The position numbers were made by a program, and so were the translations under genes. Of a DNA stretch of 64,000 bases, positions 22,296 through 55,502 are shown piece after piece (the first letter of the stretch is position 1; the number at the start of each line of letters is the position of its first letter). The notes under the pieces were generated by a model, which saw nothing but the letters and a program-made list of their open reading frames with translations, was not told the DNA's origin and did not search any database. The DNA lies in assembly GCF_900163835.1 (NCBI RefSeq), contig NZ_FUKR01000032.1:124001-188000 (forward strand), in the 5' to 3' direction. This DNA is from Mycetocola reblochoni REB411 (GTDB lineage: Bacteria; Actinomycetota; Actinomycetes; Actinomycetales; Microbacteriaceae).

Positions 22296-23141
22296 TCAGG
22301 ACCCGAGCGGCCCCTCGCCCCTGTCGCCCTTGCCCCTGTCGTCGTCGCGGCGCAGGTAGCGTTCGAACTCCTCGGCGATGGCCTCACCGCTCGCCTCTGG
22401 CGACTCCACCGTGTCCCTGGTGTGCTCGAGCTGCTGGATGTACTCGGCCATCTCCTCGTCGTCGTCGGCGATGGTGTCCACCCCCTGCTGCCACTGCTCG
22501 GCCTCGCGCGCCAGCGCCTCCGGCTCGACGGCCACGCCGACCAGGGAGGCCACCTTGCGCACGAGGGCGAGCGCGGCCTTCGGGTTGGGCGTGCTGTGCA
22601 CGTAGTGCGGGACCTGGGCCCACATCATCAGCGTCGGGATGCCCGCCGTCTCCGCGCTGTCTGCCAGCACGGAGGACAGCCCGACCGGTCCCTCGTACTG
22701 ACTGCGCTCCAGCTGCAGCCGGTCCCTGACCTCCTCGTTGTCGGAGCTCAGCGTGATGGGGGTCTCCCTGGTGTGCGGGGCGTCGGCCAGCAGGCTGCCG
22801 AGCAGGATCATGTGCTCCACGTCATGGGCGAGCGCGATGTCGAGGATCTCGGCGACGAAGGCCTGCCAGCTGCGCGCCGGCTCCTGCGCGAGCAGGACGA
22901 GGAGCCGTCCGTCGTCCGCCGGCGTGTAGAGCTGAGCCCCCGGCCAGACGATCTCTCTGGTGCCGTCGCCGCGGATGCTGATCCGGGGCCGGGAGAACTG
23001 GTAGTCGTAGTACGGCTCGGGGTCGATCGAGCGGGCCAGACGGAGGCCGGCCCTGTCCCTCAGCTCCGTGGCGGCGCGCGTGGACGCCTCGCCGGCGTCG
23101 GTCCAGCCGTCGAAGGCCACGATGAGTACCCGGCCGTTCAC
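22296..23141 (-). CDS. PAC2 family protein
   Basis: A 281-residue protein with the PAC2 (proteasome assembly chaperone 2-like) domain: VLIVAFDGWTDAGEAST near the N-terminus, the central ILLGSLLADAPHTR and GPVGLSSVLADSAETAGIPTLMMWAQVPHYV, followed by an acidic C-terminal tail (about 230-281, rich in D and E). The bacterial family is widespread in actinobacteria next to mshC; a biochemical role is not established. The frame is open far upstream; GTG at 23141 is chosen because the domain begins there and upstream sequence overlaps the divergent HAD promoter. No good ribosome binding site is visible, so the start is moderately certain. Confidence 0.83.
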   Translation of the reverse strand: MNGRVLIVAFDGWTDAGEASTRAATELRDRAGLRLARSIDPEPYYDYQFSRPRISIRGDGTREIVWPGAQLYTPADDGRLLVLLAQEPARSWQAFVAEILDIALAHDVEHMILLGSLLADAPHTRETPITLSSDNEEVRDRLQLERSQYEGPVGLSSVLADSAETAGIPTLMMWAQVPHYVHSTPNPKAALALVRKVASLVGVAVEPEALAREAEQWQQGVDTIADDDEEMAEYIQQLEHTRDTVESPEASGEAIAEEFERYLRRDDDRGKGDRGEGPLGS

Positions 23142-23199
23142 GCAGCCGTCCGCCGAATCCGTTCCCGCATCTGACCAGGATAGGCCCCGCGGGACCAGA

Positions 23200-23205
23200 T
23201 AGCAT
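23200..23205 (+). promoter_or_regulatory. -10 box TAGCAT of a likely leaderless HAD-trmI transcript
   Basis: TAGCAT ends eight bases before GTG at 23214. GACCAG followed by ATAG occurs twice in the intergenic region (near 23173 and 23193). Confidence 0.4.
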
Positions 23206-23213
23206 GGTGCCCC

Positions 23214-24923
23214 GTGAGCATTCCCGCACCCGCCGCAGTCCTCTGGGACATGGACGGCACCATCGTCGACACCGAGCCGTTCTGGATCGAGTGCGAGACC
23301 GCGCTCGTTCAGGAGCACGGCGGCACCTGGAGCCACGAGCAGGCCATGCGAATGGTCGGATCGGGGCTGTGGGAGAGCGCGGAGGTCCTCCGCGCCGCCG
23401 GCGTCGACCTGGAGCCGGACGACCTCGTCACCACACTGACCGGACGTGTCATGGGCCTCATCGCCGAGAGGGGACTTCCGTTCCGTCCCGGCGCACGGGA
23501 GCTCATCGCCGAGTTCGCGGAGCGCCGCGTGCCCCAGGCGATCGTCACCATGTCGATCCTGCCGATGGCGCGCGCCGTCGCGGCGCTGCTGCCGGAGGGC
23601 ACCTTCGACACGCTCGTCACCGGCGATGCCGTCCCGCTGCCGAAACCCCACCCCGATCCCTATCTGCTCGCGGCGGAGCGCCTCGGCGTCGACATCGCGG
23701 ACTGCATCGCGCTCGAGGACTCGCCGACGGGCCTGCGTGCCGCCGTCGCGTCCGGGGCAACGGCCGTCGCCGTGCCGCACGCCGTGCCGATCCCCTCCGG
23801 CCCCGACCACCACACACTTCCCACGCTCGCCGGCGTGGATGCCGACCGTCTGATCGCCCTGCACACGGGCCGCACGAACGAAGGAACCCCCCCGAGCATG
23901 ACCACCGCTTCACCGGCCAACAGCGGGCCGTTCCGCTACGGCGACCGGGTCCAGCTCACCGGACCCAAGAACAAACTGCACACCATCGCCCTCAAGCCGG
24001 GCGCGTCGTTCCACACCCATCGCGGGTTCATCAACCACGACGACCTCGTCGGGCTGCCGGACGGCTCCGTGGTCAGCAACTCGGTCGGCGTCGAGCACCT
24101 CGCGTTGCGTCCGCTGCTGTCGGACTTCGTCATGTCGATGCCGCGCGGCGCCGCGATCATCTACCCGAAGGACGCCGCGCAGATCATCGCGCAGGCAGAC
24201 ATCTTCCCCGGCGCGCGCGTCGTCGAGGCGGGGGTCGGCTCCGGCGCGCTGTCGATGTGGCTCCTGCGCGCCCTCGGACCGCAGGGGCGGCTGTTCTCGT
24301 TCGAGCGCCGTGAGGAGTTCGCCGATGTCGCCGTCGACAACGTCACCACGTTCTTCGGGCACGCCCAGGACAACTGGACCGTCACGGTCGGCGACCTGGC
24401 CGAGGCGTTGCCGGGCACCGTGCCCGACGGCGAGGCCGATCGGGTCGTGCTGGACATGCTCGCGCCCTGGGACTGCATCGAGGCCGCGGCCGACGCGCTG
24501 ACGCCCGGAGGGGTGCTGCTGTGCTACATCGCGACCGTCACCCAGCTCTCGAGGGTCGCGGAGGCCATCCGGGCGTCCGGCAGGTTCACGAACCCGCAGT
24601 CGACCGAGACCATGGTGCGGGGGTGGCACGTCGAGGGTCTCGCCGTGCGCCCGGAGCACCGCATGATCGGTCATACCGGGTTCCTCCTCACGGCCAGGCG
24701 CCTCGCCGACGGTGCCGTGCTGCCCGAGCTCAAGCGCAGGGCGAGCAAGTCGTCCTACAGCGACGCGGACGTCGAGATCTGGACGCCCGGGGCGCTGGGG
24801 GAGCGCACCATGAGCGACAAGAGCATCCGGAAGCGTCAGAGGGAGGCCGCGAAGGCAGCCGCCCTGTCGCTGTCGAAGGAACAGCAGGGCCCCGATGCGG
24901 GCTCTGTCCCCTCCGGCGACTAA
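23214..24923 (+). CDS. HAD phosphatase and TrmI read as one 569-residue frame (possible split gene pair)
   Basis: Residues 1-228 form a HAD-superfamily hydrolase of the beta-phosphoglucomutase/phosphatase type: DMDGT (12-16), TMSILPMA, KPHPDPYL and EDSPTGLRA. Residues 229-569 form a complete tRNA m1A58 methyltransferase (TrmI). There is no stop between them as written. In actinobacteria these are normally separate adjacent genes. The junction contains seven consecutive C residues (23887-23893); with six, the HAD frame would end in TGA overlapping the trmI ATG (ATGA), the coupling arrangement used several times in this window. A one-base assembly error or strain-level slippage is therefore as likely as a true fusion. 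GTG at 23214 is leaderless. Confidence 0.8.
   Translation: MSIPAPAAVLWDMDGTIVDTEPFWIECETALVQEHGGTWSHEQAMRMVGSGLWESAEVLRAAGVDLEPDDLVTTLTGRVMGLIAERGLPFRPGARELIAEFAERRVPQAIVTMSILPMARAVAALLPEGTFDTLVTGDAVPLPKPHPDPYLLAAERLGVDIADCIALEDSPTGLRAAVASGATAVAVPHAVPIPSGPDHHTLPTLAGVDADRLIALHTGRTNEGTPPSMTTASPANSGPFRYGDRVQLTGPKNKLHTIALKPGASFHTHRGFINHDDLVGLPDGSVVSNSVGVEHLALRPLLSDFVMSMPRGAAIIYPKDAAQIIAQADIFPGARVVEAGVGSGALSMWLLRALGPQGRLFSFERREEFADVAVDNVTTFFGHAQDNWTVTVGDLAEALPGTVPDGEADRVVLDMLAPWDCIEAAADALTPGGVLLCYIATVTQLSRVAEAIRASGRFTNPQSTETMVRGWHVEGLAVRPEHRMIGHTGFLLTARRLADGAVLPELKRRASKSSYSDADVEIWTPGALGERTMSDKSIRKRQREAAKAAALSLSKEQQGPDAGSVPSGD
23887..23893. repeat. Seven-C homopolymer at the HAD-trmI junction
   Basis: CCCCCCC between GAAGGAA and GAGCATGA. 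Its length decides whether the HAD gene ends here or continues into trmI. Confidence 0.85.
23898..24923 (+). CDS. trmI: tRNA (adenine-N1)-methyltransferase TrmI, own start inside the fused frame
   Basis: ATG at 23898 has GAAGGAA upstream and begins exactly at the N-terminus expected for TrmI (341 residues). The protein has an N-terminal small domain (FRYGDRVQLTGPKNK) and a Rossmann methyltransferase domain with the S-adenosylmethionine motif VEAGVGSGAL (337-346 of the fused numbering), FERREEFADVA and the DMLAPW catalytic-loop stretch. It methylates A58 in the tRNA T-loop as a tetramer. A charged tail (about 525-569) ends the protein. In mycobacteria trmI sits beside the proteasome-related genes; here pafB-pafC lie 1 kb downstream, which fits that neighbourhood. 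Confidence 0.85.
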   Translation: MTTASPANSGPFRYGDRVQLTGPKNKLHTIALKPGASFHTHRGFINHDDLVGLPDGSVVSNSVGVEHLALRPLLSDFVMSMPRGAAIIYPKDAAQIIAQADIFPGARVVEAGVGSGALSMWLLRALGPQGRLFSFERREEFADVAVDNVTTFFGHAQDNWTVTVGDLAEALPGTVPDGEADRVVLDMLAPWDCIEAAADALTPGGVLLCYIATVTQLSRVAEAIRASGRFTNPQSTETMVRGWHVEGLAVRPEHRMIGHTGFLLTARRLADGAVLPELKRRASKSSYSDADVEIWTPGALGERTMSDKSIRKRQREAAKAAALSLSKEQQGPDAGSVPSGD

Positions 24924-24926
24924 ACT
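24921..24926 (+). promoter_or_regulatory. Candidate -10 box TAAACT for the FKBP lipoprotein gene
   Basis: TAAACT overlaps the trmI stop codon and would start a leader of about 36 nt before GTG at 24969. Confidence 0.4.
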
Positions 24927-24968
24927 CGTGTCGTCGGTGATCGCCGACCGCCGTCGAAGTGAGGTTAC

Positions 24969-25946
24969 GTGTCCAAGGTTCCCGCCGTCCTGCTGTCCTC
25001 CGTCCTCGTGCTCGCCGGCCTGACCGCGTGCTCGACGGCGCCCGCGACGTCGGCGTCGGACTGCGAGCCCGTCGTCCAGGGCGGCTCGACCTCGACGGCC
25101 GTCCGGGTGTCGTCCGACCTCGCCGAGGAGCCGGACGCGCACTTCAGCGCACCGCTGGACGGCACGGTCACCGAGCGCACCGTCGCCGTCGCCGGTGACG
25201 GCCCGGTCGTCACCGAGGACACGCTTCCGTCGGTGACGTTCAGCATCTACGACGGGACGACCGGCGACGAGGTCGTCTCCACCGGCATCGACGCGCCCAC
25301 GCTGGCGACGGCCCTCGCGGCGCAGGCGCCGGTCATCGACGACGCCCTCCAGTGCGCCACCGGCGGGTCCCGCCTCGTCGTCACCCTCGGCGGCGAGGAC
25401 GCGGCACCGTTGGCCCAGGCGTTCGCCGGCTACGGTGTCGCCGCCGACTCGACCATCGTCGTCGCGATCGACGTGCACGATGTGCTGCCGCGCGTGGCCT
25501 CCGGGTCGCCGCAGGCCGTGTTCGCTTCCGGTCTGCCCGCCGTCGTGCAGGACGCCGAGGGCACACCCGGCATCAACATCCCCTCAACCCCCGCCCCGTC
25601 CACGCTCCGGGTGGCGGAGCTCATCGCCGGCGACGGCGCACCGGTGGACACCGACCGCCCCGTCCTGGTCAACGCGATGATCGTGCTGTGGGACGACGGC
25701 CAGATCGTCAGCTCCAGCTGGCAGGACAACACGCCGAGCCTGCTCGACGTCAGCAGCATCGCCGCGGACGATGCCATGGGCCAGACCTTCACCACCATGC
25801 TCAGCGACCGCACCGCGGGCTCCCGCGTCGTCGCGGTCGTCCCGCCGGAGAACGGCTACGGTGCGGAGGGCGCCGGGCAGATCCCCGGCGGAGCGACCCA
25901 GATCATCGTCCTCGACGTCCTGGGCAACCTCGGCGACGGACAGTAG
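24969..25946 (+). CDS. FKBP-type peptidyl-prolyl isomerase lipoprotein
   Basis: A 325-residue lipoprotein. A signal sequence with lipobox LTAC places the lipidated Cys at residue 21. The C-terminal 110 residues carry an FKBP fold: DTDRPVLVNAMIVLWDDG, PENGYG and GGATQIIVLDVL, which resemble the FKBP core though several aromatic pocket residues are not obvious. The middle part (about 70-200) repeats the same kind of sequence (DTLPSVTFSIYDG, GEDAAPLAQAFAGYGV), suggesting a second, degenerate FKBP domain. It would assist folding of secreted proteins at the outer face of the membrane. Start GTG at 24969; GTGAGG lies six bases upstream. pafB follows 18 bp later. Confidence 0.85.
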   Translation: MSKVPAVLLSSVLVLAGLTACSTAPATSASDCEPVVQGGSTSTAVRVSSDLAEEPDAHFSAPLDGTVTERTVAVAGDGPVVTEDTLPSVTFSIYDGTTGDEVVSTGIDAPTLATALAAQAPVIDDALQCATGGSRLVVTLGGEDAAPLAQAFAGYGVAADSTIVVAIDVHDVLPRVASGSPQAVFASGLPAVVQDAEGTPGINIPSTPAPSTLRVAELIAGDGAPVDTDRPVLVNAMIVLWDDGQIVSSSWQDNTPSLLDVSSIAADDAMGQTFTTMLSDRTAGSRVVAVVPPENGYGAEGAGQIPGGATQIIVLDVLGNLGDGQ

Positions 25947-28332: not shown

Positions 28333-29121
28333 GTGAGTCCCCGCGCCACCCGCAACCGCGAGGGCCGGATGTCCCTCGGAGCCCACCTGGTCGAGCTCCG
28401 CAAACGTCTGGTGCTGGCCGCCATCGGCGTCGGCCTGGGAATGGTCCTCGGTTTCGTCGTCTCCGGCTGGGTGATCGAGCAGATCACCATCCCGATCGAG
28501 ACGATCGCCGAGTCCCGCAACGCCTCCCTCAACTTCGACACCGTCACTTCGAGCTTCGACCTCCGGCTCAAGGTGGCGCTGACGGTCGGGGTCGTGGCGT
28601 CCTCACCCGTGTGGCTCTACCAGATCTGGGCGTTCCTCGTCCCCGGTCTGACGCGCAAGGAGGTGCTCTACGCGCTCGGCTTCCTCGGCAGCGCGGTCCC
28701 GCTCTTCCTCATCGGCTGCTCGGCCGGCTGGCTGGTCATGCCGCACATCGTGGAACTCATGGCGGGGTTCACCCCGTCCGAGAACGCGACCAACCTGTAC
28801 CAGGCGTCCTACTACTACGACTTCGTCCTGAAGCTCATGCTCGCGGTCGGCATCGCCTTCGTCCTGCCGGTGTTCCTCGTCCTGCTCAACTTCGTCGGTG
28901 TGCTCTCCGCAGCTGCGATCATCGGCGGCTGGCGGATCGCCATCCTCGTGATCGTGCTGTTCTGCGCGCTGGCGACGCCCGCGGCCGACGTGATCTCGAT
29001 GTTCCTGCTGGCGATCCCGATGATCGTGCTCTACTTCGCCGCGTACGGCGTCGCCTGGCTGCATGACCGGCGGGCGCGTCGGCGCTCCGATGCCCTCGCG
29101 GCGGAAACGGCCCCCCTGTGA
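28333..29121 (+). CDS. tatC: Twin-arginine translocase subunit TatC
   Basis: A 262-residue membrane protein with six predicted helices. The N-terminal MSLGAHLVELRKRL is the TatC signature for twin-arginine signal binding, and the FVPGLTRKE and PVFLVLLNFVGVL regions are conserved. GTG at 28333 is the furthest start; ATG at 28369 (residue 13), exactly at the signature, is a good alternative because the GTG lacks a clear ribosome binding site. The last four bases overlap the helY start (GTGA), so the genes are coupled. Confidence 0.94.
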   Translation: MSPRATRNREGRMSLGAHLVELRKRLVLAAIGVGLGMVLGFVVSGWVIEQITIPIETIAESRNASLNFDTVTSSFDLRLKVALTVGVVASSPVWLYQIWAFLVPGLTRKEVLYALGFLGSAVPLFLIGCSAGWLVMPHIVELMAGFTPSENATNLYQASYYYDFVLKLMLAVGIAFVLPVFLVLLNFVGVLSAAAIIGGWRIAILVIVLFCALATPAADVISMFLLAIPMIVLYFAAYGVAWLHDRRARRRSDALAAETAPL

Positions 29122-54098: not shown

Positions 54099-55424
54099 CT
54101 ACTCCGTTCGCTGTTCTCGTCCGGCTCCGCCGAAACGTTCGGTGACGGCCTCGCCGTGAGCGGGAAGGCCCTCCGCGTCGGCCAGCGCCGTGATGAGCCC
54201 CGCGCTGGAGCGCAGGCCGTCGCGCGAGTACTCGATCACCTGCTGGGAGCGGAGGAAGCTCATGGCTCCGAGCCCGGCGGAGAAGCGCGCCTGTCCCCCC
54301 GTCGGCAGGACGTGGTTCGATCCAGCCATGTAGTCGCCGAGGCTGACCGGCGAGTAGGCACCGAGGAAGATCGCGCCGGCGTTGGTGATGCGCTCGAGCA
54401 CCGCCGCATCGTCCCTGGTCTGGATCTCGAGGTGCTCAGGAGCGTAGTGGTTGCTGACCGTCGCCGCGGTGTCGAGGTCGTCGACGAGCACGATCGCGGA
54501 CTGGGGACCCGACAGGGCGGCAGCGACACGGTCCGCGTGGGCGGTACGGCGCTGACGGGGCGCCAGCTCGGCGCGGACCCGCTCGGCGAACTCGGCCGAG
54601 TCGGTGACGAGAACCGACGCGGCGGCCTCGTCGTGCTCGGCCTGGGAGACGAGGTCGGCCGCGACAAAGCCCGCATCGGCGCTGTCGTCGGCGATCACGA
54701 GAATCTCCGTGGTCCCCGCCTCGGAGTCGATGCCCACCGTTCCCCTGACCAGGCGCTTGGCGGCCGCGACGAAGATGTTGCCCGGGCCCGTGACGACGTC
54801 CACAGGGGCGAGCCCGAGCTCGGGCACGCCGTGGGCGAAGGCGCCGATCGCGCTGGCCCCCCCGATGGCGTACACCTCGTCGACGCCGAGGATCCCCGCG
54901 ACCGCGAGGATGGTCGGGTGGACGGAGCCGCCGTACTCCGACTGCGCCGGTGACGCCAGAGCGATCGACGAGACGCCGGCCACCTGTGCGGGAACGACGT
55001 TCATGACGACGCTCGAGGGGTAGACCGCCTTCCCGCCGGGGACGTAGAGACCGACCCGGCCGACCGGCTGCCAGCGCTGACGCACCACCTGGCCGTCCCC
55101 GATCACGGTCGTGCTGGCCGGCGGGACCTGGGCAGCGCTGACCGCGCGGACGCGCTCGACGGCGACGCGCACGGCGTCGGCGACCTCGGGGTCGAGGGAC
55201 GCGACCGCCTCGGCGATCTCGCTCGTCGGCACCCTGAGGTGCTCGGGGGCGCCGCCGTCGAAACGGGCCGCATGCCGCCGGAGCGCGGTAACGCCCTCCG
55301 AGCTGACCTCGTCGATCAACTCGGCCGCCGCGGCGGAGGCGGCGGCGACGTCGAGCTCTGGTCGAGGAAGGGACAACGCGAGCGTGTGGGCCGGCGCGGA
55401 ACGCAGATCGATGAGATTCATCAT
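54099..55424 (-). CDS. hisD: Histidinol dehydrogenase
   Basis: A 441-residue enzyme with [34 protein letters not shown], the zinc- and catalysis-related [15 protein letters not shown] and the APEHLEI and [10 protein letters not shown] blocks, all typical of HisD. It performs the last two oxidation steps of histidine synthesis. No other his gene is adjacent; it leads hisD-nrdR-pyrD, an arrangement I have no functional explanation for beyond shared nucleotide metabolism. A -10-like TAAGAT (reverse strand, 55434-55439) lies nine bases before ATG. Confidence 0.95.
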
Positions 55425-55502
55425 GACCGGCCCATCTTATCGTGCCGCGTGCGCGCGACCGGGCCTCGCCCGCGCTGGAGGGCGGCCCGGTCCGTCCTTC
55501 AC

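Follow-up and report, generated by a model that had tools for sequence, protein, structure and literature searches.

Junction of the HAD phosphatase and trmI genes

The tRNA methyltransferase TrmI is described as modifying A58, as active in the form of a tetramer and as carrying a mobile N-terminal domain (PMC3281791). Four-base overlaps have been reported as the commonest close gene layout in prokaryotes, enriched for subunits of complexes (PMC10666635), and frame transitions between adjacent genes have been catalogued, with a caveat concerning fusion and fission (PMC3711429). Our literature search found no report of a HAD-TrmI fusion among the matches listed, although the search was weak, since 'had' also matches the verb; among the TrmI papers in the matches listed, no title dealt with such a fusion.

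In the window (the whole stretch of 64,000 nucleotides of Mycetocola reblochoni REB411 analyzed here), a HAD phosphatase gene and trmI are joined, in the sequence as written, on the forward strand in a single uninterrupted frame over both domains, as in a genuine fusion. The open reading frame begins with GTG at 23214 and ends with a stop codon at 24923 (23214-24923), encoding a HAD phosphatase-linker-TrmI protein of 569 residues with a calculated mass of 60.4 kDa. The shared frame is decided by a C7 run located at exactly 23887-23893, across which the HAD frame reads ACC CCC CCG AGC ATG ACC and the protein EGTPPSMTT. With six C, the frame would read ACC CCC CGA GCA TGA, and the HAD protein would end in EGTPRA at a TGA (23899-23901) that overlaps the trmI ATG at 23898. 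The two parts would then be a 24.0-kDa HAD protein (23214-23901, the end being the TGA reached with one C fewer) and a 341-residue TrmI of 36.4 kDa (23898-24923). A Shine-Dalgarno-like GAAGGAA (23880-23886) and the trmI ATG are both present at the junction. The position of the run, the read-through, the effect of one C fewer, the retained start signals and the approximate product sizes (60 versus 24 and 36 kDa) had all been proposed in an earlier note on this DNA, and each agrees with the sequence.

The gene order and, with six C, the exact layout are those of an ATGA/GTGA-coupled pair, in which the upstream stop overlaps the downstream start. In contrast to such pairs, the window as written has the upstream stop out of frame and both genes in one ORF; the ATGA at 23898-23901 combines the trmI ATG with the out-of-frame TGA of the ancestral overlap. 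The earlier note was also right that this coupling is used elsewhere in the window, where the filter applied here retained five NTGA overlaps (two ATGA and three GTGA). A consensus scan of 23000-25100 found no promoter or terminator.

Both halves of the protein belong to recognizable families. The N-terminal half contains a HAD_2 domain (PF13419, residues 9-187, 86.1 bits, cutoff 23.8) and exceeds the cutoff of the HAD-IA profile TIGR01509 (52.6 versus 29.4). Residues D12, D14, T112, K144 and D169, which we take to be the HAD catalytic residues (DxD, T, K, D), are invariant in 20 of 20 aligned fused proteins. This half resembles HAD-IA phosphatases of the beta-phosphoglucomutase/YqaB type, with a PGMB-YQAB-SF match below its cutoff, but it reaches no listed equivalog cutoff, so its substrate was left unassigned. 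The C-terminal half has both the TrmI N-terminal domain (PF14801, residues 238-287, 92.1 bits, cutoff 24) and the GCD14-type methyltransferase core (PF08704, residues 307-474, 92.6 bits, cutoff 26). Its best match among solved structures is M. tuberculosis Rv2118c (PDB 1i9g), which aligns with residues 237-506 (E 7e-98); that structure shows 280 residues of TrmI as a chain of its own, whereas TrmI of the window is preceded in frame by the HAD domain. The predicted structure of the fused protein has two domains (mean pLDDT 80.3, pTM 0.49) connected by a linker of residues 224-235 (23883-23918), which is predicted to be disordered. This linker is one of six stretches with pLDDT < 50, the other five being located in the second half of TrmI.

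The junction in other Microbacteriaceae

We read 142 distinct HAD-trmI junctions, all from Microbacteriaceae, of which 118 are separate and 24, including the window, are in one frame. Exact duplicates (600 identical bases) were counted once and loci without a trmI match were left out. Because the loci are mostly top-scoring matches (the best 80 of 185 in one listing), the proportion of 24 in 142 does not estimate a population frequency; the first 35 other genera (G001-G035) form a less biased sample, and two of the 29 read there are fused. An NTGA overlap is present in 95 of the 118 separate junctions (67 ATGA, 26 GTGA and 2 TTGA). Outside these counts, 14 loci were taken from 12 further families of the order; no HAD match was found beside trmI in any of them, although a far-diverged HAD could escape such a search and one locus, L181, is truncated and offered no fair test.

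The closest junctions are those of the Okibacterium/Mycetocola group (g3), in which seven loci were read; two of them, L055 and L210, look like one genome, leaving six distinct genomes. All six have AAGGA, a spacing of 8 nt and ATGA. In five of the six, the HAD C-terminus is EGLSR, EGIPR or KGIPR and its last codon, next to the TGA, is CGA; in the remaining one (L053) the C-terminus is EGPSS. The window fits this register (CGA, plus one extra codon) only with six C; relative to the register of these relatives, the C7 run is therefore a one-base gain. Judged from these sequences, the six-C register is the ancestral one, and its match to g3 is the best evidence for the seventh C as a gain. Over 8 kb, the best DNA match to the window is G033, which has the same junction as Labedella phragmitis. 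A tree was built from 106 of the 142 junctions, with a maximum of four each from Agromyces, Microbacterium and Frigoribacterium. The window is located among separate rows, nearest by path to Mycetocola zhadangensis and Okibacterium, but its position is not supported by any starred branch. The tree requires at least ten changes between the fused and separate states, six of them forced by starred branches, although individual placements are uncertain because several branches are long; a quicker preliminary tree with 155 rows required 11 changes.

Leucobacter (g15), G008 and G135 also have these two domains fused in one frame, ordered as in the window. Among 54 Leucobacter genomes, 19 are fused and 11 read as separate; the other 24 gave split or partial matches and were outside the junction reading. 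None of these fusions has a homopolymer at the junction, and in five fused loci (L011, L038, L039, L040 and L047) the region spanning -90 to +36 around the expected trmI start contains no ATG, GTG or TTG. The window differs from these five in retaining AAGGA and ATG. Fused orthologs free of a homopolymer, which the earlier note had named as the mark of a true fusion, therefore exist, but they belong to other lineages, and the nearest tree rows are separate. Another six fused loci (L012, L015, L019, L044, L045 and L046) have retained an ATG in frame at this point, in several cases with GGAG or AAGGAG just upstream, and are candidate sources of TrmI in both forms, as part of the fusion and on its own.

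The window could also share an old fusion with G008, in which case the C7 run would be real and not recent. G008 is fused and is the best full-length match (66% over the whole query), and holding the window and G008 together was not rejected (p-AU 0.314). G008, however, groups on a starred branch with its congener G090, which is separate, its linker has neither an ATG nor a C run, and the window keeps a coupled-type junction, so we regard a shared origin as very improbable.

Homopolymer runs and assembly quality

Within the region from 100 bases before to 30 bases after the expected trmI start, a run of seven or more was found in the window only, among the 142 junctions. C6 is present in nine others: eight times inside trmI at +13, away from the overlap (L090, L104, L105, L107, L110, L111, L113 and L151), and once in HAD at -69 (L141). 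Just upstream of the trmI start, no run of six or more is found in the other 141 junctions. These counts bear on the proposal that the run is a functional slippage switch, acting at the level of replication, transcription or the ribosome, which controls how much of the fused and of the separate proteins is made. The C7 is present, both outcomes would be productive, and the fused frame contains CCC-C, a sequence context in which +1 slips at proline codons have been described. A conserved switch was nevertheless rejected: the run is absent from the 141 other junctions, the RNA predicted for 23840-23960 folds no more stably than shuffled sequences do (z +1.11), and housekeeping enzymes would not be usual phase-variable genes. 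We regard a functional switch as very unlikely. The earlier note had posed error, switch and recent fusion as the three explanations; the trio was well chosen, the switch found no support, and an error and a real fusion both still stand.

Long C/G runs are rare in coding DNA of this genome and its relatives. In 201 coding ORFs (the window and 326 kb more of the same genome, L187-L206), three runs of seven or more were observed, the C7 included, and 61.1 were expected (mean of 100 codon-order shuffles, sd 7.3, lowest 45). In 515 coding ORFs from 80 named related loci (L034-L113; 50 shuffles), two were observed and 163.4 expected. Runs are thus rarer than in shuffles by about 20-fold in this genome and about 80-fold in the related loci. 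Six-base C/G runs are depleted as well (73 versus 152.7 expected in this genome, 91 versus 404.8 in the 80 loci). Coding C/G runs of seven or more are strongly counter-selected, and because of this depletion the C7 is odd in itself, real or not. The window contains one further C7 (54857-54863), located inside a coding-like minus-strand ORF (54099-55436), whose frame is apparently unharmed. A C8 and a C9 on contig C30 of this genome (L200, 15133-15140 and 16224-16232) exceed all other C/G runs of the 390-kb sample in length.

Assembly quality was screened in 390 kb of this genome (the window and 20 other stretches, 13%). We found 117 C/G runs of six or more with room on both sides, 69 of them with a confident frame on both sides. 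Among these 69, the frame is unchanged in 61, the strand changes in two and the frame changes in six. All six frame changes are two-gene junctions (four ATGA, one GTGA and one TGATG), and in each the run sits just before the stop-start overlap (window 29111-29116; L188 10291-10296; L190 12832-12837; L199 12298-12303; L200 9250-9255; L206 17142-17147). In five of the six, the coding strand carries the run as G6, possibly acting as a Shine-Dalgarno sequence. One added base would fuse any of the four ATGA pairs or the GTGA pair. No mid-gene frameshift was seen at the confidently scored runs in this 13% of the genome, and none was convincing among 98 close frame transitions on the same strand that were collected with looser criteria. 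In seven of the 98, the 40 nt around the upstream stop lack a start codon; on visual inspection, as a rough judgement, six of these seven are gaps of 25-55 nt separating coding stretches, and the seventh (L189, minus strand) resembles antisense noise. Nothing marks the assembly as indel-prone, although a low error rate would escape a 13% sample.

A sequencing or assembly error is a serious rival to a recent real fusion, and we consider it quite possible. The true sequence would then have C6, and HAD and TrmI would be two ATGA-coupled proteins, as in most of the relatives read. The window is one base away from the ancestral layout, the site is a homopolymer in a draft assembly of 80 contigs, and C7 in coding DNA is rare. 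The retention of frame at 61 of the 69 scored runs, with all six frame changes at gene junctions, argues against an error, as does the coincidence that a random error would have had to strike a pair that fuses repeatedly in Microbacteriaceae.

Proposed origin and meaning of the fused frame

On balance, we favor the explanation that the C7 run is a real and recent fusion of the two genes in this strain, with a probability of roughly 0.57. It is supported by the repeated fusion of the same pair elsewhere in the family, by the position of the extra C in the predicted disordered linker, by the HAD residues kept in fused proteins, by the lack of mid-gene frameshifts at scored C/G runs of six or more in the sampled genome, and by the register of the nearest junctions, which is matched only with six C. 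Against it stand the intact trmI ATG, AAGGA and HAD C-terminus, all of which a true six-C sequence would predict, together with the separate tree neighbors, the counter-selection of such runs in coding DNA and the representation of the genus by a single genome in our set.

As a recent fusion, the locus would derive from the coupled HAD phosphatase-trmI pair of Microbacteriaceae, in which a C6 just before the ATGA overlap would have gained one C by a recent mutation of this strain. Ribosomes would then read through to produce the 60-kDa HAD-linker-TrmI protein, in which each of the two domains would fold on its own. Some separate TrmI may still be initiated at the ATG at 23898 with the help of the surviving AAGGA, but this internal start is perhaps weak, because GAAGGA is located 12 nt from the ATG (8 nt in g3). 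A rare +1 slip on CCC-C could lead back to the old HAD TGA, probably without regulatory meaning.

Taken together, these steps would yield three proteins from one locus: the 60-kDa HAD-TrmI, TrmI from the internal AAGGA-ATG and a 24-kDa HAD protein by the +1 slip. We regard this combined outcome as unlikely. If true, it would mean a fusion caught half-way, at a stage already passed by some Leucobacter fusions, which keep an internal ATG, and by others, which have lost all starts.

A real fusion would tether the HAD domain to the TrmI tetramer. The locus also calls for caution, as automated annotation would report a two-domain protein of 569 residues on the strength of one C. For the family, a single base can turn a coupled gene pair into a fusion protein, and this pair has been fused several times in Microbacteriaceae. 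Such recurrent fusion is a hint of a possible joint role for the phosphatase and the tRNA methyltransferase.
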